Assembly: GCA_903927965.1 (NCBI GenBank)
Contig: CAIYPA010000437.1
Coordinates: 1-64,000 of the forward strand
Direction of reading: 5' to 3'
DNA length: 64,000 nucleotides
Source of the DNA: an uncultured Bacteroidia bacterium
GTDB taxonomy: Bacteria > Bacteroidota > Bacteroidia > Bacteroidales > Prolixibacteraceae
The position numbers and the translations under genes are program-made. The first letter of the stretch is position 1; each line of letters opens with the position of its first letter. Shown here one piece after another: positions 3,101-56,168 of this stretch. Under the pieces are notes generated by a model. The model worked only from the letters and a program-made list of their open reading frames with translations. It did no database searches and had not been told where the DNA came from.

Positions 3101-5095
3101 TCATTTTTGTTTGGCTTTGAAAGCGGCCAAACCTTTGTCCAAAAAGTCGATAAAATGCTCCGGATTTAAATCCCTCGCAGTAGGTTCAACCAGCAATTCC
3201 TGGTTATGGTCAAGCAATACATAATAAGGCTGGGCATTTACCCCAAATTTGGATATCTGAAAATCGGCAAATTTCTTTCCGATCGTCTTTTTTATTTTTT
3301 GATCATATGTTGATGTAACCCATTCTTTTTCAGGTAGATTTGTTTTGTCATCAACGTAAAGGGCTACAATTACGAAATTATTTTTTAACCGTTCAAGCAC
3401 ACGTGGATCAGACCAGACATTTGCTTCCATCTCCCTGCAGTTTACACATCCATGACCTGTAAAATCAATGAACACGGGTTTATTTTGAGCTTTGGCACAG
3501 GCCATTCCCTGTTCAAAATCGAAATATCCTTCCAATCCATGTGGCAATTCTAGAAACTCGCTAAATTTGGGCTTTTCGCAAAGCGCATTGCCTTTATTAG
3601 CGAATTTATCAATTCCCGGGGCATGATCCACCAGTTTTACCTCATCCCTGATAATCTTGTGCAGATCAAAATCATGCGATGTCATCGGTGGAAGGTAGCC
3701 TGATATCGCTTTCAATGGGGCTCCAAACATTCCGGGAAGGAGATAAACAACAAAAGAGAAGGTGATCAGGGACATCATCAGTCGTGGAACGGTTATAAAT
3801 TTTGTGTCACTATCGTGGGCAAATTTCATTTTCCCAAGCAGATAGAATCCCATCATTGTAAAAATAACAATCCATAGGGCGATATAGACTTCCCGGTCGA
3901 GAATCCTCCAATGATAAGTCTGGTCGGCAATACTCAGAAATTTCAGTCCGAGCGCCAATTCGACAAAACCAAGGACCACTTTCACCGAATTCAGCCACCC
4001 CCCCGATTTGGGGAGGTTCGACAACCACTGCGGGAAAATGGCAAAAAGTGTAAACGGTAAAGCAAAAGCCAATGAAAAGCCAAGCATCCCAATGATTGGT
4101 TTTATGACCATCCCCCCCGCAGATTCGACCAAAATTGCCCCGACGATCGGCCCGGTACAACTGAACGATACCAATACGAGGGTCAAAGCCATGAAAAAAG
4201 CGCCGCCTATTCCCCCTTTATCGGCCTGGCTATCCGACTTGTTCACCCAATTGCTTGGAAGGATAATTTCGAACGCACCAAAAAAAGAGAAAGCAAAAAC
4301 AGTAAAAATCAGAAAAAACAGGACATTAGGGATCCAATGGGTACTTAACCAATTGGCAAAATCAGCCCCGAGGGTAAGGGCAACCACAGTACCTATTAAT
4401 GTGTATATCAATATAATAGATCCGCCATAGACAAATGCCTGGATCTTTGCCTGCAACCTCGATTTGCTGCTGTTCATAAAGAATGAGACCGTCATCGGGA
4501 TCATCGGAAAAACACAGGGCGTAAGTATCGCAGCCAATCCTGCAACAAAACTAAATACCAAGAACCACCACAAACCATGTTGTGGCGCTGCTTTGTTTAT
4601 TGCGACAGGTTTAACAGTCGTTTTAGCCGGAGCCGTTCCTGCAATGTCAAAACTAAAATCCAGATCGTCGAGGGTACAGGTCTCGTTGTTGCAACTTTGG
4701 TACTCGACAGCCCCTTTGATGCTAAACGATTGATTTGTAATGACTTTAATCGTTTGTGTAAAAATGGCTTCATTGCTGAAAAATTCGAGGTCCATGTTAA
4801 AAATCTTGTCATGTTCCTTTGTTGGTTTAGTTTTAGGCGATATATCTCCCACCAATTGATATTTGGAACTATCGGGATTAAATGTAAAGCTTGTTTTAAT
4901 GGGTCCTCCGTCAGGCAAACTTGTGGAATAGAGATGCCATCCAGCATCGATTTTAGAACTGAACGTGAGTTCAATTTCTCCATTTCCGGTAGATTTCTGC
5001 GAAAAACTCCATTTGACCGGTTTGGTCAGTTGACCTGAAGATAGGATACTTGTACTTAATATCAGGGATATTAAGAGAATAAGTGTTTTTGTCAT
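3101..5095 (-). CDS. DsbD-family thiol:disulfide interchange protein
   Basis: Inner-membrane protein of 664 residues that passes electrons from cytoplasmic thioredoxin to the periplasm. A signal peptide (1-21) precedes a DsbC-like periplasmic domain (25-150) with the pair Cys135/Cys140 (CNNETC). A membrane domain of about eight helices (175-465) begins with AAILTPCVFPMIPMTV (Cys194, the CxFP signature), and a second redox-site Cys lies in the SFSCTGPIVGA helix. The C-terminal thioredoxin domain (about 500-664) carries the active site GCVNC (near 549-552). All three modules of DsbD are therefore present. Its own promoter-like box lies just 5' (5121-5128), after the terminator of the RNase G gene. 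Confidence 0.92.
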   Translation of the reverse strand: MTKTLILLISLILSTSILSSGQLTKPVKWSFSQKSTGNGEIELTFSSKIDAGWHLYSTSLPDGGPIKTSFTFNPDSSKYQLVGDISPKTKPTKEHDKIFNMDLEFFSNEAIFTQTIKVITNQSFSIKGAVEYQSCNNETCTLDDLDFSFDIAGTAPAKTTVKPVAINKAAPQHGLWWFLVFSFVAGLAAILTPCVFPMIPMTVSFFMNSSKSRLQAKIQAFVYGGSIILIYTLIGTVVALTLGADFANWLSTHWIPNVLFFLIFTVFAFSFFGAFEIILPSNWVNKSDSQADKGGIGGAFFMALTLVLVSFSCTGPIVGAILVESAGGMVIKPIIGMLGFSLAFALPFTLFAIFPQWLSNLPKSGGWLNSVKVVLGFVELALGLKFLSIADQTYHWRILDREVYIALWIVIFTMMGFYLLGKMKFAHDSDTKFITVPRLMMSLITFSFVVYLLPGMFGAPLKAISGYLPPMTSHDFDLHKIIRDEVKLVDHAPGIDKFANKGNALCEKPKFSEFLELPHGLEGYFDFEQGMACAKAQNKPVFIDFTGHGCVNCREMEANVWSDPRVLERLKNNFVIVALYVDDKTNLPEKEWVTSTYDQKIKKTIGKKFADFQISKFGVNAQPYYVLLDHNQELLVEPTARDLNPEHFIDFLDKGLAAFKAKQK

Positions 5096-43614: not shown

Positions 43615-45048
43615 TTACTTCCAAATATAGGTTCCAACAGCTCCTTTATCCAATTGGGTTGAAACAGATTTGCCTTTCCATGTCAGGTTAAAGGTTTTGT
43701 TTTCGCTGCTGTTGTTCTGGACAATTACAACAATCTTTCCATCGGCGGTTTTAAAAGCTACATTAGGAAGATCCTTCGATGTATTGGAAGCGATCCTAAT
43801 AGATCCTGGACGGACGAATTTTGCGGCATGGGCCAATATGTAATAGGCTGGATTTCTTGTTATTAGATTACCATCAATCGTAATGGTTCCAAGACATTGG
43901 GTGCAACCACCAATTGTATGTGGGTCATTTTTGGGATCGGCTGCAAGGTTCCATTCGAGCACTGTGCGGCACCAGTTGCGTGTTGCCCCTATAATCAGGG
44001 TCCGTACATGCCATGCCAGGTCGCCCGCCAGTTTTCCAGGAGCACCCACCCATTGTTCCGTAAAATAGAGATTTTTATCAGGATATGCCTCATGTACAGG
44101 TGTTAATGCATCAATTGATCCTCCGTAAAGGTGAAAAGCCGACCCATCAACATATTTTGCAGCATCCGGATCTTTTAAGATCGTCAAAGGGTACTCAGGT
44201 CTGTCTGCATTATGGTCATACACTATAATTTTCGTCGAAAGTTTGGCTGCTGCAAAGGCCGGACCAAGACTTTGCTTAACGAATTTAGCCTGGTCTTCAG
44301 CTGTCATGTACATGCTTGGGTTATTTCCGGGATGCAAAGGCTCGTTCTGGATTGTAATTGCGTCAATGTTAATTCCTTCTACCTTCATGCTGTTGAGATA
44401 CTTCACAAAGTACAAGGCATAGGCATCGTAATATTCAGGTTTCAGGCTTCCCCCTTTTGAATTGTTGTTGGTTTTCATCCAGGTTGGGGCCGACCAAGGA
44501 GAACCCATAATTTTGATTTCGGGATTGATGGCCAATATTTCTTTTAAGATTGGGATCAGGTCGGCTTTTTCCAAGTCAATCGAAAATTTCGACATTTGGG
44601 GATCGGTTTCACCATCGGCCAGGTCGTTGTAGGAAAAGACTTTTTCGCTCAAATCGGATGCCCCTATACTGATCCTCAAATAACTGATTCCTATGTTATT
44701 ATCATTGGTTGCGAATAGTTCTTTCAAAATAGCAGTCCGTTTGTCTGCCTCTATCCGATGTAAAAGTGTGGCACTTCCCCCAGTTAAACAATTTCCAAAC
44801 CCATCGATGGTCTGAAAAGTTTGGATCGCGTCAATGAGAATGGATGGGTCCTGGTTGATCGGTTTACCAAAATCCAACTCTTTCTGCGGTTGAAAGAGAA
44901 TATTTTTTTCTGGACTTGTCAGCCAGAACTGAACAGCTTTTTTCGAATGTTGGGATGAAGGACTTTGGGGTTGGTTTTTGGACAGGACGGTTTCTACGGA
45001 ACAGAGCAAAGAAATAAAAAGTACAAATGCTAACAATTTGATTTTCAT
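43615..45048 (-). CDS. Glycoside hydrolase family 30 glucanase
   Basis: Secreted enzyme of 477 residues. Signal peptide 1-23. The family core begins with IDGFGNCLTGGSATLLHRI; the acid/base is Glu236 in ITIQNEPLHP and the nucleophile Glu331 in LYFTEQWVG, with PWSAPTWMK and the small beta-sandwich at the C-terminus. GH30 includes glucosylceramidases and endo-beta-1,6-glucanases; with two GH16 genes at 56-58 kb the beta-1,6-glucanase role fits branched beta-glucan. Exact subfamily not resolvable. Confidence 0.9.
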   Translation of the reverse strand: MKIKLLAFVLFISLLCSVETVLSKNQPQSPSSQHSKKAVQFWLTSPEKNILFQPQKELDFGKPINQDPSILIDAIQTFQTIDGFGNCLTGGSATLLHRIEADKRTAILKELFATNDNNIGISYLRISIGASDLSEKVFSYNDLADGETDPQMSKFSIDLEKADLIPILKEILAINPEIKIMGSPWSAPTWMKTNNNSKGGSLKPEYYDAYALYFVKYLNSMKVEGINIDAITIQNEPLHPGNNPSMYMTAEDQAKFVKQSLGPAFAAAKLSTKIIVYDHNADRPEYPLTILKDPDAAKYVDGSAFHLYGGSIDALTPVHEAYPDKNLYFTEQWVGAPGKLAGDLAWHVRTLIIGATRNWCRTVLEWNLAADPKNDPHTIGGCTQCLGTITIDGNLITRNPAYYILAHAAKFVRPGSIRIASNTSKDLPNVAFKTADGKIVVIVQNNSSENKTFNLTWKGKSVSTQLDKGAVGTYIWK

Positions 45049-45142: not shown

Positions 45143-45340
45143 CGGTGCGCTGCACCTCCATCGTTACTTCAATTTCAACGATTTCTACAAATATTTCGCC
45201 ACTCTGTGGCATTCAGGAGGTGCAGTGCACCGGAATATTTGTAGAAATTCAGCCATGGACAAGATATTAGGTGCAGCGCCCCGGAATATTTGTAGAAATT
45301 CCGCCACGGACAAGATATCGAGGTGCAGCGCACCGAAATA
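45143..45340. repeat. Palindromic intergenic repeat cluster (four units)
   Basis: Three direct units start at 45219, 45270 and 45322 with the dyad GGTGCAGYGC(A/C)CC followed by GGAATATTTGTAGAAAT(T/C) and a GCCAyGGACAAGATAT spacer; periods are 51 and 52 bases. An inverted unit at 45143-45198 has the exact reverse complement CGGTGCGCTGCACC and ATTTCTACAAATATTTCG. Between glpF (ends 45405) and GH30 (starts 45048), so in a 356-base gap with no gene. The dyads may form hairpins that stop transcription or act as REP-like mobile repeats. Confidence 0.85.
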
Positions 45341-49329: not shown

Positions 49330-50021
49330 TTAAGTTAAAACGAAGTTTATTTCAAAAATAAAATTCCATTCCCAAAAGACCTTTTTAGACAAGATCTTAT
49401 TCATAATGAACCCATTTTCACTCGAAATCGCGGAAATGGTTTGGATATCGCAATCATCGGAAAGGATCATCAGTATTCTGGTCCCGGTGTGGATAAATTT
49501 GTCAATCTGGTTGAACAGGTTTCTGAAATACTCAAAGTCTTCGCCACAATACCAGGCATATTCAGCAACAGAAGAGGGCTTTTTGGGGAAATAGGGTGGT
49601 GGAATAATGATGATGTCGAATGTTTGGGGCGGTATTTTCGTAAACAAATCTGATTCAATCACCTGCATTGTCTGATTGTTTAAACCCGCATTAAGTTGCA
49701 AATTTTCAATTGCAAGTGGAGAAATATCGGTGGCTGTCACAATAGCACCCTTTATTGCAGCAAATAACAATATAAAGCCTGTTCCTGCACCCAACTCAAG
49801 GAATTTGAAACCCTCCAAATTGAGATCTTCCAGAAAATTGACAAATATTTTGGTACTCTAAAACAATCCGGGATGGGAAATGTCCCTATTTTCCTGAACT
49901 TTAATCCCTTTATACGCGTATTTAAAGCCTCAACGAAATAATACTTTACGATGAGAATGAAGAGGTACTTACCAGTTATTTTGAATGCATTTTTAAGTTC
50001 TTGATCGGAAAATAATTTCAT
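49330..50021 (-). pseudogene. SAM-dependent methyltransferase, frameshifted and interrupted
   Basis: Remains of a class I methyltransferase. The start (50021, MKLFSDQELKNAFKITGKYL) runs in one frame; the body lies in a second frame: YKGIKVQENRDISHPGLF, then an internal TAG at 49858-49860, then STKIFVNFLEDLNLEGFKFL, ELGAGTGFILLF (SAM motif I), DIIIIPPPYF (substrate motif), to 49330. The frame shift falls near 49930-49945 and the TAG replaces a residue in what should read LFFSTKIF. Both lesions are needed to restore one protein of about 230 residues. Last gene of the radical SAM operon; possible read errors are not excluded. Confidence 0.8.
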
Positions 50022-50060
50022 GTCACAGTAGATTAAAATGGCATTATAATTAACTAATAT

Positions 50061-51152
50061 TCATTGAAATGATCCACAGCAACGCGTACAGCCTGGCATT
50101 AAACCACCACTTTTTATTAAATCACTTCTTAATTGGGCCAGAGTTTTCGAATTCCAGATCTCTTTCAAACTATTTTGGTAAAGATTCCCTGCTACCACTT
50201 TATAACATTTGCCAATCCCCGGGATAACATCCCCATTGGGTTTTACCATGATATTTCGAAAGGTGTCCCAGCAATGATTTCCTATCGTTTGAACATGGTT
50301 ATTGTAATACACCGATAAAATATTCAAGTCATTGAGATCGGGATAGAAAGAAACCGGAAATGGAAGACCAATTTTCCTGATTTCCTTTATTTGCTCAAAC
50401 AATACCGGTAATTTGATATTATCAAGGTTCATTTTTGATAAAGAAGAATCTGTTACCGGATAAGCATTTCCCCAAAGCTTATTGTGGTCAAGAGCCATGG
50501 CAGAAGAAACAAAATTTGGGTGCATAAATGCTATGCCCTTAATTTGCAGAGATTTGAATATATTAACAAATTCTATCATTTTATCATAATTCCACTCTGT
50601 AATTGTGTGACATACTAATATTTTAATCTCACTTTGAGATAATTCCAAAACCCGCTTTATCCCTTCGAAAGCCAATTCAAATGAGTGAGGATTTCCCCGG
50701 ATCATGTTGTGTGTTTTGGGAGGGCCATCCAGGGAAACATTTAAATATTTAAGACCGGATACTGAAAGATCAGCAGCTAGTTCTTTTAATTTCAACCCAT
50801 TCGTTACCAATGATGTAGAAATTCCTTTTTGTCGTGCATAGTCGAGTGAGGTTAAAAGATGCGGATAGATCAATGGTTCCGCATAAGAATAGTCAATTTT
50901 TGTCTGAGGATAAAAATGCCCAATTTCATCGCAAATCTTTTTGAACAATTCCAAGGGCATATTTAATGGTTTATTACCCGTTAAGTTTTGGGAATAATTA
51001 CTTTCTGTATGGCCATTTCCAACATCACACATTTTACAATGTAGGTTGCAGGCGTTGTTCAAACCAAGTAATAGCCAATCCGGCCCATAAAACAAATGGC
51101 GAGGATATATTCTTTGATTGAGTTTTTTGAGCCGGTTATGCAGCAAAATCAT
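50061..51152 (-). CDS. Radical SAM protein with SPASM-like C-terminus
   Basis: Protein of 363 residues. The radical SAM site CNLHCKMC has Cys35, Cys39 and Cys42; the partial barrel follows (TSLVTNGLKL, YLNVSLDG). The C-terminus holds HCWDTFRNIMVKPNGDVIPG and CTRCCGSF, cysteines matching a SPASM auxiliary cluster, as in enzymes that modify peptides or carbohydrates. It starts ten bases after the upstream radical SAM gene and ends 39 bases before the methyltransferase remnant. No substrate peptide gene found nearby. Confidence 0.88.
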   Translation of the reverse strand: MILLHNRLKKLNQRIYPRHLFYGPDWLLLGLNNACNLHCKMCDVGNGHTESNYSQNLTGNKPLNMPLELFKKICDEIGHFYPQTKIDYSYAEPLIYPHLLTSLDYARQKGISTSLVTNGLKLKELAADLSVSGLKYLNVSLDGPPKTHNMIRGNPHSFELAFEGIKRVLELSQSEIKILVCHTITEWNYDKMIEFVNIFKSLQIKGIAFMHPNFVSSAMALDHNKLWGNAYPVTDSSLSKMNLDNIKLPVLFEQIKEIRKIGLPFPVSFYPDLNDLNILSVYYNNHVQTIGNHCWDTFRNIMVKPNGDVIPGIGKCYKVVAGNLYQNSLKEIWNSKTLAQLRSDLIKSGGLMPGCTRCCGSFQ

Positions 51153-51162
51153 AGCGAAGTGT

Positions 51163-52554
51163 TTAAGATTGATGATATATTGAAATTTGTTTCATTTTCA
51201 GCCTCCAATAAATGGCAAAGAGTTTATGTTTTAAAGCCTGAACCATTTTCATTTTTTTCCAATTTCGATAACCAGCCATCTCCCTATTTACAAGGTTGAT
51301 AGCATACTCATAATATTGCCTTGGGTATTTCCTGCTGAAATCAGTTTGCCGGTCAGTTCTATTTGCCCAATCGTTTTCAGATGGATCGCTCAAAACAACC
51401 TGATTGTACAATTCGGTACCTGTTATGGGATATGCAAGTGTAATCGTATATAAGTCGGGATTTGAACGTTTAAGATGCTTCACGGTGTCGAGAATGTCCT
51501 TTTCCTCCTCGCCTGGATATCCTAACATAATAAAGGTTCCAGCTTGCATACCGGCTTTTTTGACAGAAATAATGCTTTTTTGAACTTCCTCAACCTTGAC
51601 CTTCCTGTTCATTAAGTCCAATATTTTTTGAGAACCACTTTCGGCGCCGATCCAAACCCTGTAGCAGCCCGATTCTTTTAATAACTGAACATCCTGAACA
51701 GATAATTGATCGGCCCTTGTAATGCACTCATAACTTATTCGGATATGCCTCAATTTCAATTCATTCGCAAACCGGCTAAGCCATTGCGTGCTTAACGTGA
51801 ATACATCATCTACAAACCAGATATGATCAAATTGAAAATGACTTTGCATCCAAATAATTTCATCTACGACCAATCGGGGACTCCTGCGCCGGTTTGAATT
51901 TCCATAGACAGCTTTGCTACACCAACAGCATCCAAAAGGACACCCACGCATTGTACTGATATTTAATGTATTAAATCCATGCACCTCTTTCCATTTCGAA
52001 AGGTACGATCCAATATTGATTTTATGACGTGCTGGAAGTGGCAGGTTGTCCAAATTCAGCAGATTTCGGTCCGGAGTAGAAATTATATCACCTAAAGGTC
52101 CGGAAAATGCAATCCCGCGGACAGAATTCAAAGGTTCGTTATTTATTAAAGCATTGATCAGTTCAAAGGTTGTTGCTTCCCCCTCTCCAATAACAAGATA
52201 ATCTGCACCATGAATGAGGTAATTCTTTGTATTAAACCTAACATCCGGACCACCGAGGATAATCTTAGCACCTTTAAGTTGATTTGATGATTTGATGAAC
52301 TTTATCAGCCTAATTATTTGTAGTTTGGTCATTAATGTGGCATATATGCAAATAAAATCGGGGACTTCTTTCAAAAGATAATCCGATAATGATTCTTCAG
52401 TTTCAAAAGTAGAATCAAAAACTTCGTTCATCAAACCATTCTGATCTAGGTAGGCTGAAACATACAACAATCCAAGAGGAGGATAAGGCATCATTGTCTT
52501 TTGCTCTGACTTATCATCACAAAGAAAATAGGCATGTGTAATGACAATCTTCAT
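51163..52554 (-). CDS. B12-binding-type radical SAM protein (copy 2)
   Basis: Protein of 463 residues. The N-terminal 170 residues form a cobalamin-binding-like Rossmann domain (TMMPYPPLGLLYVSAYLDQN, KIILGGPDVRF, ADYLVIGEGEATTFELI). The radical SAM core starts MRGCPFGCCWC near 205-215 and shares VWIGAESGSQKILDLMN with its paralogue at 53.3 kb. Family members often methylate unactivated carbon. It overlaps the upstream methyltransferase by four bases. Whether it really binds cobalamin is inferred; no DxHxxG motif is obvious. Confidence 0.88.
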   Translation of the reverse strand: MKIVITHAYFLCDDKSEQKTMMPYPPLGLLYVSAYLDQNGLMNEVFDSTFETEESLSDYLLKEVPDFICIYATLMTKLQIIRLIKFIKSSNQLKGAKIILGGPDVRFNTKNYLIHGADYLVIGEGEATTFELINALINNEPLNSVRGIAFSGPLGDIISTPDRNLLNLDNLPLPARHKINIGSYLSKWKEVHGFNTLNISTMRGCPFGCCWCSKAVYGNSNRRRSPRLVVDEIIWMQSHFQFDHIWFVDDVFTLSTQWLSRFANELKLRHIRISYECITRADQLSVQDVQLLKESGCYRVWIGAESGSQKILDLMNRKVKVEEVQKSIISVKKAGMQAGTFIMLGYPGEEEKDILDTVKHLKRSNPDLYTITLAYPITGTELYNQVVLSDPSENDWANRTDRQTDFSRKYPRQYYEYAINLVNREMAGYRNWKKMKMVQALKHKLFAIYWRLKMKQISIYHQS

Positions 52555-53345
52555 CCTGCTTTGATTAAATGGATTAAATAATGATCTGCATATGCTGATA
52601 ACAACGAATAGTTTTCAATCTTCGACTCAATTTTCCCCAAAACTTTTAATAACCTTGGATGCCTTGAAAAAAAGCCATTCAAATAGGAAGGCGGAATAAA
52701 CAATCCGATTGGCTTTATTGACCTGATTGTTAGATTGTTATTGAAGAACCCCGAAAATTGTCCGGGATTATAGTACCAGACTGGGAAACTTTCTTCATTA
52801 AATGTGATTAATGTTTCTTTGACTGTCCATCTTCGGATACCCGTTCTGAATTTCAATTTCACGAAAAAATATAAGCTATCCCATAGGCAAAAGCGGGGCA
52901 TCAATACACCTATCAAATGACCTCCTGGTTTCAAAAGATGATGTATTGCCTGTGCAAAAAGTTGATAGTCGATGGAGGAGATGCAGTTCAGGCCACCAAA
53001 ATTTGAAAAAATAAGATCGAATTCCTCATTTTTGAAAACACTTCCGATATCAAGTAGATTACACTGAAGGATCCGGATATTCTGTTGCCCCATTTCTGCT
53101 TTTTTTTGAGCAATTTCGATCATTTTTCCTGAAATATCTGTAGCTGTGATATTTAATCCTCTCTTCGAGAAGTAAAGGGCATCAGTTCCTGTTCCGCAAT
53201 TGATTTCAAGGATTTTAGCGTCCGGATTATTAAATTCCATTGAATCAAGATATTTAATGACCTGGGTACGCTGCATCCGTCCAATTGCAGATTCGGTGAA
53301 ATCGACGTCATAATTTTCTGCCAACAAATCAAATGGAACCTGCAT
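52551..53345 (-). CDS. Class I SAM-dependent methyltransferase
   Basis: Protein of about 264 residues. The start MQVPFDLLAENYDVDFT (at 53345) lies one base after the stop of the upstream radical SAM gene; an ATG at 53363 would overlap it. SAM motif I is ILEINCGTGTDALYFSKRG, followed by ITATDISGKMIEIAQKKAEM and FDLIFSNFGGLNCI. The C-terminal region is hydrophobic and may touch the membrane. The N- versus O-methyl target is unknown; the operon suggests it acts on the same product as the radical SAM enzymes. Confidence 0.87.
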   Translation of the reverse strand: MQVPFDLLAENYDVDFTESAIGRMQRTQVIKYLDSMEFNNPDAKILEINCGTGTDALYFSKRGLNITATDISGKMIEIAQKKAEMGQQNIRILQCNLLDIGSVFKNEEFDLIFSNFGGLNCISSIDYQLFAQAIHHLLKPGGHLIGVLMPRFCLWDSLYFFVKLKFRTGIRRWTVKETLITFNEESFPVWYYNPGQFSGFFNNNLTIRSIKPIGLFIPPSYLNGFFSRHPRLLKVLGKIESKIENYSLLSAYADHYLIHLIKAG

Positions 53346-53346
53346 C

Positions 53347-54804
53347 TTAAGTCTTTTTACCAAGTTTATTTAATTTGATCTTATCCATTACGCATAGTGG
53401 TGCCATGTAAACAATTTTAGCGCAATTCTTTACAAAAACACGATTGAAAAAATTCAGGTTACTGACTGAATCCTTGAGAATTGAGATCGACTTTTTATAG
53501 TTAAACCGTCGATGGATGTATTTATAAAGTTGCCTGTAGAACTCTGATGAATAATTGTTTACAAACATCATATCCAGGTCGTTAGAGTCTGTCCAATTCG
53601 ATTTTTCCTGCAGATCCTTTTTTACTTTTTCATAATACGGTGTACCTGGAAGTGGATACGAGACAGAGATGCCAATCTCACCCGGCATTAAATCCAGGAT
53701 CATTTTTATGGACAGATCAATATCCTCTTTTGTTTCGTTCAAATAGCCCAGTTGGATAAAAAAGGCTGTTTTGATCCCATATTTTTTCAGGAGTCGAAGT
53801 GCTACGCCAATTTGCTCAACTTTGACCCCTTTGTTCATCGCATCCAGTATTTTTTGAGATCCGGATTCTGCACCCATCCACACTTTTTTGCATCCAGATT
53901 CAGCAAGCCATTGCACTGTTTTTTCGTCCTGAAGCAGGTCGGCCCGGGTTTGAATGATATAACCAAAGCAAAGTTCCCTTTTTTTCGTCAAACTATTGAA
54001 TTCGTTCAGCCAATTTGGCTTTTGGCCAAAAATATCATCACACATCCAAAATTCCCTTGCATTGTAATTGTCCATCAGGAACGAAATCTCATCTATGACC
54101 TTTTCAGGTGAACGGGACTTATAGCTATAGCCATATATTGGTTTGGCGCACCAATTGCACCGGTACTGGCATCCGCGTGTGGTGGCAATGTTTAAGGTAA
54201 ATTGACGGTTCCCATTGACCCATATTGACCGGTAACTTTCCATATCGATTAGGTCCCAGGCAGGCATCGGAAGCGAATCGAGATCCGAAATTAGCGTTCT
54301 TTGGTAAAAGGGATGATCCCCTTCACGACAATACACCCCTGCAATATATTGAATATCAGCATTTGGTATCTCAAGATGATTAATCAGTTCCTTCAAAGTT
54401 GCTTCAGCTTCGCCACGGATCACATAATCAGCACCCTGGTCGAGGTATTTTTGATAATGGTCTGTTGAATCAGAACTCGAAATGATCACTATACAGCCGT
54501 TGTTTTTTCCAATTTTGATCATTTCAAAAGCTGCCTCCCGCATGTTTGTCAGGCACATTTTGGTCAGATAATTAAAGCAATCATCATAAACCACAAGATA
54601 TTGGGGCGCGAATTCATTAATGACCGGGATAATATCATTTGGCGAATCTTTTAAATTCGTATCAAAAAGGGCAACATGATAACCCTCCTGCCTGATTACT
54701 GCAGCGGCAAGGATTGTTCCCAAAGGCGGATATGGCTGTTTCATCTGCCAGCTTTTGGGGTCGAACTTGTAAAAATAGGAATGTGTAAACAGTATTTTAT
54801 TCAT
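53347..54804 (-). CDS. B12-binding-type radical SAM protein (copy 1)
   Basis: Protein of 485 residues, paralogous to the 51.2 kb gene. N-terminal domain MKQPYPPLGTILAAAVIRQE and DQGADYVIRGEAEATLKEL; radical SAM site TTRGCQYRCNWCAKPIYGY; later VWMGAESGSQKILDAMNKG. The C-terminus carries extra basic residues (about 430-485). It overlaps the nucleotidyltransferase gene by eight bases. Role inferred as in its paralogue. Confidence 0.88.
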   Translation of the reverse strand: MNKILFTHSYFYKFDPKSWQMKQPYPPLGTILAAAVIRQEGYHVALFDTNLKDSPNDIIPVINEFAPQYLVVYDDCFNYLTKMCLTNMREAAFEMIKIGKNNGCIVIISSSDSTDHYQKYLDQGADYVIRGEAEATLKELINHLEIPNADIQYIAGVYCREGDHPFYQRTLISDLDSLPMPAWDLIDMESYRSIWVNGNRQFTLNIATTRGCQYRCNWCAKPIYGYSYKSRSPEKVIDEISFLMDNYNAREFWMCDDIFGQKPNWLNEFNSLTKKRELCFGYIIQTRADLLQDEKTVQWLAESGCKKVWMGAESGSQKILDAMNKGVKVEQIGVALRLLKKYGIKTAFFIQLGYLNETKEDIDLSIKMILDLMPGEIGISVSYPLPGTPYYEKVKKDLQEKSNWTDSNDLDMMFVNNYSSEFYRQLYKYIHRRFNYKKSISILKDSVSNLNFFNRVFVKNCAKIVYMAPLCVMDKIKLNKLGKKT

Positions 54805-55762
54805 TGCTCACAAATAATTTAACGCGTTTCGTTGATTCAAACTCCTTGCCCGCCATATCAAATAGTTTTAGGATTCTTGATTGGTTATCATCAATCGAAA
54901 AATTCATTCTTACCATTTTACGGTTGACTGTATTAAAAAAGGTCTCTTTGTTTGGCACAGTCGCCCTGTTGGTATCAATTTGCCATTTCTTGCGCTTAAT
55001 GACAATCTTCATTATCATGAAATCGATGAAATCGAACAATTGTTTGATACAAATAAACTCTATAAAACGCTTTAGCCGATTGGAATTTTCATCCAGAGTA
55101 TCATTCACCCACTCAAATCCGAAATTTGGGAAATAATCTTTTATCCACTGATTTTGATACAGAAGGTCGATACTGGTTTTTTTTCCACAAGCAGGAATAA
55201 GTATGGCCAATTCGACGGCAGTAAATAAATTCATGGGGGTTACCTCAGTCCCCATTTCAATGAAATAATTGGTACAAATGAGATATTTCCTTTTGGAACC
55301 TAGCATTTTTCGATAAATGGTCATCATTAACCTGATTAGCCATAACCTTTTTCGCTCCGAAATAATGAAAAAATCAATATCATTGCCATAATCAAAATTG
55401 TTTTTTGAAAGGGATCCCGATAAACACACGCCACGTACAAAAGGAAAATGGAACAAGGTTTTTGCGAGGCTTACTGCAATTGGAAAATATCTTTTAGATA
55501 ACCTGTTGGTTTTAACCCTTTTCCTTACAAGTCCGCCATCTTTTCTTAATTGGTAATAGCCACTTTCGTGGTATAGCAGGTCCTTTCTGACAAGGCTTGC
55601 AAGGGTTGCCTTAAATTGCTCATCATCTGGTATTTTTATTTGGCAAAAACGAATAATCTCATCTTCTGTTAAAGGGTAATCAAAAATCCCTGAATACAGG
55701 AGTGTTTTAATAATGCCACTTTCCAACTCATTTAATTGCTCGTCAACTTGTTTTAATTCCAT
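54797..55762 (-). CDS. Nucleotidyltransferase-fold protein with N-terminal winged helix
   Basis: Protein of 321 residues from the ATG at 55762 (MELKQVDEQLNELESGII). A winged-helix-like N-terminus (10-75; FDYPLTEDEIIRFC) leads to the nucleotidyltransferase signature CLSGSLSKNNFDYGNDIDFFII (G-S and D-x-D), as in MNT-type transferases. A more upstream start at 55792 would overlap the -7 box. First gene of the radical SAM operon. Substrate unknown; a role in activating a sugar or tailoring a small molecule is possible. Confidence 0.78.
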   Translation of the reverse strand: MELKQVDEQLNELESGIIKTLLYSGIFDYPLTEDEIIRFCQIKIPDDEQFKATLASLVRKDLLYHESGYYQLRKDGGLVRKRVKTNRLSKRYFPIAVSLAKTLFHFPFVRGVCLSGSLSKNNFDYGNDIDFFIISERKRLWLIRLMMTIYRKMLGSKRKYLICTNYFIEMGTEVTPMNLFTAVELAILIPACGKKTSIDLLYQNQWIKDYFPNFGFEWVNDTLDENSNRLKRFIEFICIKQLFDFIDFMIMKIVIKRKKWQIDTNRATVPNKETFFNTVNRKMVRMNFSIDDNQSRILKLFDMAGKEFESTKRVKLFVSNE

Positions 55763-55789
55763 ATAGCCTGGCTGAATTAGATAACAAAG

Positions 55790-55797
55790 CAAAATTA
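55790..55797 (-). promoter_or_regulatory. -7 box of the radical SAM operon
   Basis: TAATTTTG on the minus strand, 27 bases before the ATG at 55762, matches TAnnTTTG. It supports the shorter start of the nucleotidyltransferase gene. No TTG at -33. Confidence 0.4.
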
Positions 55798-55985: not shown

Positions 55986-56168
55986 TTAATCGTTGGCGCG
56001 GCGAAGTTCCAATTCAGTTTTCATGAGGTCGGTTGTTGCGGCATCGATCTTATAGAAAAACATGAAGATGGCACACGACATGTAGGGGATTCCAAGTATT
56101 ACCGAAACCAGAAGTTTAATTCCTGTAATGGCATTTGTTGTCTCCAAAAAAAAGTCTTTTTTATTCAT
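55986..56168 (-). CDS. 60-residue single-helix membrane protein
   Basis: MNKKDFFLETTNAITGIKLL followed by a hydrophobic helix (about 18-40) and a charged tail ending RRAND. The start at 56168 is 16 bases after the GH16 stop, so it is co-transcribed. I do not recognise a family. The longer frame from 56219 overlaps the GH16 end and is not used. Confidence 0.5.
   Translation of the reverse strand: MNKKDFFLETTNAITGIKLLVSVILGIPYMSCAIFMFFYKIDAATTDLMKTELELRRAND

Follow-up and report, generated by a model that had tools for sequence, protein, structure and literature searches.

A partial copy of a conserved Bacteroidota radical SAM gene module in an uncultured Prolixibacteraceae genome, with a possible role in surface-glycan tailoring

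A stretch of 64,000 nucleotides from an uncultured Bacteroidia bacterium of the family Prolixibacteraceae (assembly GCA_903927965.1, contig CAIYPA010000437.1, positions 1 to 64,000; hereafter the window) carries an operon of six minus-strand genes, running from 55762 down to 49330, that encodes a predicted nucleotidyltransferase, two B12-type radical S-adenosylmethionine (SAM) proteins, two methyltransferases and a radical SAM/SPASM protein (Table 1). The genes were lettered A to F following the order of transcription. A and B overlap by 8 bases and C and D by 4, and gaps of 1, 10 and 39 bases separate B from C, D from E and E from F, respectively. The open reading frame (ORF) calls thus agree with an initial annotation, made from the sequence alone, that had described six same-strand genes with these overlaps and gaps and a class I methyltransferase flanked by a paralogous B12-type pair; B and D are 34% identical in sequence, with C between them.

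Table 1. Genes and features of the operon and its upstream edge, in window coordinates.
Feature	Position	Strand	Description
A	54797..55762	-	Winged helix, predicted nucleotidyltransferase domain (MNT / pol-beta type) and helical C-terminus, 321 aa
B	53347..54804	-	B12-type radical SAM protein, 485 aa; marker of the module
C	52551..53345	-	Class I SAM methyltransferase, 264 aa
D	51163..52554	-	Second B12-type radical SAM protein, paralogue of B, 463 aa
E	50061..51152	-	Radical SAM/SPASM protein, 363 aa; optional member
F	49330..50021	-	HemK/MTQ2-like methyltransferase, frameshifted; overlapping ORFs 49752-50021 and 49330-49818
Promoter-like box TAATTTTG	55790..55797	-	Bacteroidota -7 type
Transporter relic	55986..56168	-	C-terminal 60 aa of an MFS_2-family sugar transporter; upstream module edge

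The ATG at 55762 was taken as the start of A, and a TTG at 55792 is an unlikely start because it falls within the promoter-like box. The box reported by the initial annotation exists and is of the Bacteroidota -7 type, but it is weak evidence for a promoter, since boxes of its class occur in the window at chance level (73 found, 68.3 expected).

The operon was compared with homologous loci across Bacteroidota. A class-wide search with B gave matches in 59 of 395 genomes including the host, that is in 58 of 394 others, and the best match was 46-58% identical in 57 of these 58, the remaining one (G510) being partial at 39%. In a scan of genome contigs, at least 557 stretches encoded a relative of B at E 1e-3, and the best 80, at 52-57% identity, belonged mostly to Flavobacteriales, Sphingobacteriales, Chitinophagales, Saprospirales, Cytophagales and Ignavibacteriales; the same kind of scan with A alone gave no match. 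Surroundings of up to about 20 kb were fetched, and their ORFs were called and scored with profiles built from the module families. This gave 137 loci with B, of which 4 with an identical B were dropped to leave 133 non-identical loci. Loci short of flanking sequence were left out of the individual counts, hence the denominators of 123, 105, 128, 114 and 81.

C was found within 1 kb downstream of B on the same strand in 117/128 loci, A within 150 bases upstream of B in 88/123 and within 10 kb on either side in 94/105, and D within 3 kb downstream of B on the same strand in 61/114. Among the 81 fully covered loci, the genes within 10 kb of B included D in 48, a third B12-type protein, named G, in 41, F in 26, an E-type SPASM protein in 6 and a SPASM protein of another type (e) in 16. 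Same-strand neighbours lay no more than 30 bases apart in 87/93 A-B, 108/118 B-C and 58/64 C-D pairs. A-B-C, often with D, is a conserved linked module of Bacteroidota, in which E and F are optional members and G is the third B12-type protein of the fuller form. The initial annotation had proposed that the single-pathway view be given up if these genes were unlinked elsewhere, and over the 133 loci they are tightly linked. Its treatment of the operon as a unit holds for this linkage, but the fullest form is not in the window, where G is missing, F is decayed and no glycan-polymer genes adjoin. The window is the single locus seen in which A to F follow one another directly while G is absent. 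A locus from the same order, L263, carries a Wzz-like gene, a member of the Wzy_C family, G, F, A, B, C, a further methyltransferase and a D that is cut by the contig end. The module is unnamed but widespread in Bacteroidota, no curated equivalog fits it, and no description was found by title or abstract in open-literature searches aimed at it, with subscription papers mostly outside their reach.

Some individual loci showed unusual features. B and C read as one 761-aa frame at L105:9685-11970 (minus strand), which may reflect gene fusion or misassembly. In a same-order genome, D and G are each split into two pieces (L264:7659-9036 and 3237-4766), perhaps through decay there as well or through assembly errors. 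The locus L176 (CALPIE020000027.1), titled as a Bifidobacterium breve metagenome-assembled genome, carries a Flavobacterium-type module, falls in the Bacteroidota group of the B tree and is probably mis-binned; L166 (JAKLJF010000074.1), titled Thermoanaerobaculia, groups with Saprospirales in that tree, probably through mis-binning, otherwise by transfer.

Protein A showed a weak match to Pfam NTP_transf_2 (E 0.0011; 19.7 bits against a cut-off of 21) and none to any NCBIfam model. Its AlphaFold model (320 residues; mean predicted local distance difference test score, pLDDT, 87.9) shows a winged helix followed by a putative nucleotidyltransferase domain, with helices making up the C-terminal end. 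The full-length fold matched no PDB chain at E<=0.001 in Foldseek, the top rows being MNT antitoxins (best E 0.018); for the nucleotidyltransferase part, the closest structure was the aminoglycoside nucleotidyltransferase 6un8, at a modest level (Z 8.1, root-mean-square deviation 3.1, 111 residues). The residues G115, D127, D129 and E183 were identical in 114/114 rows, the window included, and the first three supply the GS motif followed by DxD of the MNT / pol-beta superfamily. Because these four residues are invariant, the alignment argues for A being a working, if unproven, enzyme rather than a mere DNA-binding protein.

Both B and D matched Pfam Radical_SAM (PF04055) and B12-binding (PF02310), the latter over the cut-off of 32.1 bits at the N-terminus of D (44.1 bits) and under it in B (26.5 bits, E 6.2e-6). 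The CxxxCxxC cysteines are invariant in B (C212, C216, C219) and conserved in D (C205, C209, C212). In a sampled tree of 54 rows, in which some outgroup branches were very long, B and D formed separate, well-supported sister clades (support 97) apart from G and other B12-type proteins, and the pair is old and not a recent duplication. The AlphaFold model of B (mean pLDDT 82.9, the cluster loop and its surroundings being of low confidence) has a fold nearest to MgmA, OxsB, AprD4, TsrM, CysS and TokK, and aligns with OxsB and TsrM over about 450-560 columns. Because AprD4 is a radical SAM dehydratase, as described in PMC5461906, the scaffold of B does not discriminate among methylation, dehydration and ring chemistry. 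When each operon protein was compared with its best 25 NCBIfam families, no equivalog cut-off was reached; the best score was 141.6 for B, with 481 needed (BchE), and 146.4 for D, with 600 needed (PhpK). B and D may use cobalamin. The host itself probably uses B12, since it has a match to a B12-dependent methionine synthase domain.

Protein E matched Pfam Radical_SAM and SPASM (PF13186, E 7.2e-10), with close homologues in 7/133 loci (L096, L110, L133, L176, L185, L214 and L222). The cysteines C35, C39 and C42 and C294, C355, C358 and C359 are kept in 7/7, and C316 of the window protein lies outside the conserved columns. Protein C matched Pfam Methyltransf_25 (E 2.9e-18). The 3' part of F matched Pfam MTS and scored 236 bits with the F-family profile. 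A HemK/MTQ2-type enzyme is expected to carry NPPY, a motif typical of methylation at planar nitrogen, in an open frame. This motif is kept in at least 90% of 37 relatives of F and reads PPPY in the frameshifted window copy; the initial annotation had already called the last methyltransferase decayed. The frameshift may be an assembly error, and F of the window is probably non-functional.

The genes with which the module keeps company were then considered, each recurrent neighbour family being judged from one Pfam-scanned representative. They include GT4, PMT_2-like and GT87 glycosyltransferases, a Wzy_C O-antigen ligase and a polysaccharide deacetylase, together with a Wzz-like family (below the Pfam cut-off), an ABC transporter, a GNAT protein, an amidohydrolase and two more methyltransferase families. 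In Mucilaginibacter and Dyadobacter, the order of genes in the block is largely preserved (L186, L192, L209, L218). At least one of six glycan families (GT4 twice, PMT_2-like, GT87, Wzy_C and polysaccharide deacetylase) lay within 8 kb in 50/81 fully covered loci, compared with 1/20 control regions of 20 kb from hand-picked places in nine module-carrying genomes. This comparison favours the loci: BLAST clusters served to score them, whereas the control regions, chosen by hand, were scored by another program with profiles derived from the same clusters. By these counts the family lies among glycosyltransferase, ligase or chain-length genes, as is expected of a surface-polysaccharide locus. A Pfam comparison free of this bias, although made on related loci and hence not on independent events, gave Glycos_transf_1 in 13/120 sampled neighbour proteins and in at most 2/120 control proteins, where Glycos_transf_1 and Wzy_C were outside the 25 listed families with a smallest listed count of 2. 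The 120 neighbour proteins also included 4 with Glycos_transf_2 and 4 with Wzy_C, and the 120 controls 2 with Glycos_transf_2. The two samples were taken from 1023 eligible neighbours and 249 controls, 128 being drawn randomly from each and 8 of each left out, among them L092:4935-6329, which is a radical SAM protein itself.

Relatives of A were also found in seven same-family or same-order loci (L018-L024) in which nothing scored as B, D, E or G and six of which hold a relative of C. Two of them were scanned; both have a Wzy_C O-antigen ligase, and a Wzz match at the cut-off (L018) and an epimerase (L024) were also present. These loci are a second setting for the nucleotidyltransferase family of A. 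The remark in the initial annotation that a transporter is lacking is true of the window copy, but elsewhere O-antigen ligase, Wzz-like and ABC genes occur among the neighbours. A flippase label given by eye to one neighbour family, three members of which had no Pfam match, was dropped, and the family was left out of the counts. A lipoprotein-like neighbour family, LP5 (e.g. L182:13606-14739), occurred in 19 module loci, with 19/20 members on the strand of B and no Pfam match for its representative.

In contrast to these loci, the window copy lies outside any such setting. Its neighbours are glpK, glpD-like and glpF-like genes and two GH16 genes (glpK and one GH16 by Pfam, the rest by eye), and the module is rare among relatives: A (E 0.001) and D (E 1e-40) had matches in 0/17 genomes of the same genus, and B was found in just 4/392 other genomes of the order. 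The GC content is 0.35-0.38 for A, C, D, E and F and 0.398 for B, compared with a mean of 0.410 (standard deviation 0.027) over 43 window ORFs. At the upstream edge, the relic is 68-72% identical to the ends of 450-453-aa proteins in four loci of relatives, one of these proteins being assigned to Pfam MFS_2. In 3/4 of those loci, the full-length transporter adjoins a homologue of window gene 43615-45048; here glp genes and the module lie between them, a separation that suggests a rearrangement and would fit one that came with the arrival of the module. In the relatives' loci that were inspected, however, glpK had a different genomic setting, so that no clean empty site was found. Because it lies away from recognised sugar-polymer genes, beside a truncated transporter and in a genome with 17 sampled congeners lacking the module, the window copy looks both acquired and partly decayed, and each is probably the case.

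The edges themselves carried few marks. No repeat of 16 bases or longer was found within either module edge, a repeat search over 45-56.3 kb gave no repeat pair joining the two edges, the window contains no tRNA, and 44-60 kb had no Rfam match. A 51-bp tandem repeat with inverted-repeat arms is present at 45143-45335, between the aquaporin-like gene and the 43615 gene; the genome has two copies of its 19-base core, and both are located there. Carriage on a plasmid or virus was considered and dropped, B not being found in a plasmid collection (E 1e-40) or in viral contigs, as was a defence system, the PADLOC matches (viperin, mad2, PDC-M51A) spanning single domains.

Whole-genome searches of the host, whose genome is 98% complete, revealed no G and no further A. 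Other radical SAM genes of the host were also tried as parts of the module, and among 8 of the 30 further matches that were scored none was a member. At columns conserved in 95% of the other rows, D deviates at 9/126, the most of 68 rows, and F likewise deviates the most of 38; B deviates at 8/133, which only 2/132 others equal or exceed, and A (1/27) and C (1/25) are unremarkable.

The B12-type radical SAM group includes enzymes of several known pathways. GenK and GenD1 (gentamicin) and MoeK5 (moenomycin) are described in PMC8992657 and PMC5461906 as B12-type radical SAM methylases for sugar-containing products, and in belonging to the same group as B and D they offer a precedent for such products. 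They sit in antibiotic pathways, whereas the module has up to three paralogues with a nucleotidyltransferase, is often in Bacteroidota surface-glycan loci and is known from sequence. The radical SAM diol dehydratase AprD4 (PDB 6fd2) occupies ranks 4 and 5 among the fold matches of B, shares its two-domain scaffold and acts on a sugar, but B scores 59 bits against a cut-off of 500, and a reductase partner was absent from the recurrent neighbour families scanned. MgmA (PDB 9ccb), the best PDB sequence match to both B and D and the best fold match to B, differs in being a methyl-coenzyme M reductase glutamine methylase of methanogens with a protein substrate, and the fold alignment shows about 17% identity. 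HpnJ, BchE, PhpK, rSAM_ladder_B12 and TIGR04295 (B12_rSAM_oligo) are of the same broad group, with the scores of B and D far below the curated cut-offs. In fosfomycin biosynthesis, where Fom1 is the cytidylyltransferase, the B12-type enzyme Fom3 reportedly recognises a substrate carrying a cytidylyl group. The parallel would be a nucleotide-tagged substrate; A differs in its MNT-type domain, and nucleotidylation by A of the substrate of B would be a guess.

Taken together, we lean, with modest confidence, towards reading the operon as an incomplete version of a conserved Bacteroidota module, usual in surface-polysaccharide loci, that tailors a surface glycan by B12-type radical chemistry. The initial annotation had suggested one product, perhaps a lipid, glycan or peptide; because of the genes the module keeps company with, this narrows towards a surface glycan, and the peptide is unsupported. 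Linkage, gene neighbourhood and conserved catalytic residues are direct observations; the substrate, the reaction, the use of cobalamin and the role of A we infer as follows. The module would act on a sugar precursor, lipid-linked or nucleotide-linked, ahead of export. A may transfer a nucleotide that activates the substrate or marks it for the radical enzymes, and B and D, with G elsewhere, could carry out radical reactions on unactivated sugar carbons, of which C-methylation would be the simplest, with deoxygenation or rearrangement as possible alternatives. C, plus F where it is intact, would add ordinary methyl groups, and in some species E could catalyse one more radical step, an oxidation or epimerisation. 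In the window, the copy may carry out the modification incompletely or not at all. A bolder proposal, which we regard as quite improbable, is that a new kind of sugar-tailoring machine is made up of A, B, C, D and G: a surface-glycan precursor would be tagged with a nucleotide by A and passed through two or three B12-type enzymes in succession, yielding C-methylated or rearranged sugars hitherto undescribed in Bacteroidota envelopes.

Several observations weigh against the surface-glycan reading or parts of it. None of the six glycan families lies within 8 kb in 31/81 covered loci, and no neighbour points to a particular sugar. A is missing in 11/105 loci, and about half of the loci lack D, as about half lack G. 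In A, no invariant acidic residue stands at 168 or 169, where the third carboxylate is expected, and its winged helix would also suit a regulator. B and D need not be methyl-transferring enzymes, the dehydratase AprD4 being a close fold match to the model of B. For the window copy, reading by eye recognised no glycosyltransferase at 21.4-64 kb; a GT4-like frame lies at 20.2-21.4 kb. As to its acquisition, the GC content of B is near normal, the tree places window B at the end of a long branch and offers no close donor, and the scarcity of the module in the order could also reflect loss.

Other explanations were weighed against the same data. That the operon of the window has lost its function and is simply being eroded is somewhat unlikely, and this view is compatible with the glycan reading of the family: F is frameshifted with an altered motif, G is missing from the whole genome, the position is an orphan one, and D, F and B are among the most deviating rows of their alignments, but the frames of A to E are intact, the radical-SAM cysteines are retained in B, D and E, as is the motif of A, the deviation of A and C is unremarkable, and that of the others could be the divergence of a distant lineage. 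Modification of a membrane lipid or a polyprenyl carrier, in the manner of hopanoids, ladderanes or bacteriochlorophyll, would make the sugar genes a reflection of shared envelope function. The curated matches of B and D do include HpnJ (hopanoid), rSAM_ladder_B12 (lipid) and BchE, and GT87 and PMT-type families, which use polyprenyl-linked donors, are among the module neighbours. This idea is improbable in our judgement, given scores far below the equivalog cut-offs (133.8 for D against 360 for rSAM_ladder) and, with the 144 Pfam families of the 120 sampled neighbours ranked by frequency, a fatty-acid-type content in the top 25 that is restricted to two thiolase domains with 2 members each.

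A small diffusible natural product of the aminoglycoside type, rather than a surface polymer, could explain why the fold neighbours of B (OxsB, AprD4, TsrM, CysS, TokK) are natural-product enzymes and why the window copy is apart from polymer genes. We consider it markedly improbable, since a module present in 58/394 other genomes of the class and often beside O-antigen ligase or Wzz-like genes would be unusual for antibiotics, and the 15 recurrent neighbour families scanned included no synthase or resistance gene of that kind. The chance is very remote that the SPASM and B12-type enzymes modify a precursor peptide in a pathway for a ribosomally synthesised and post-translationally modified peptide (RiPP), as the SPASM domain of E and the sub-threshold matches ApyD and rSAM_ocin might suggest. 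Small ORFs of 20-110 aa within 1.5 kb of module genes recurred in at most 3/133 loci, and the 10 small ORFs of the window had no match among the small ORFs of these loci, so that the conserved precursor peptide gene of a RiPP pathway was not found. The initial annotation had likewise seen no precursor peptide, considering the operon unlike a standard RiPP cluster, and no short peptide ORF in the 55.8-56.0 kb gap; this gap holds just ORFs of 20-34 aa and the end of the next ORF, none of which was matched in other module loci. The 60-aa ORF adjoining the operon was ruled out as a precursor peptide, being the transporter gene end listed in Table 1.

The family is more interesting than the window copy. 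The 133 non-identical loci, those with a named source being mostly from the six orders listed above, share an unnamed module in which as many as three B12-type radical SAM enzymes hold conserved places. If the surface-glycan reading is true, the module would connect vitamin B12 with the chemistry of the cell surface in common environmental bacteria, and would represent an enzyme set whose substrate could be found by comparing the glycans of a mutant with those of its parent.

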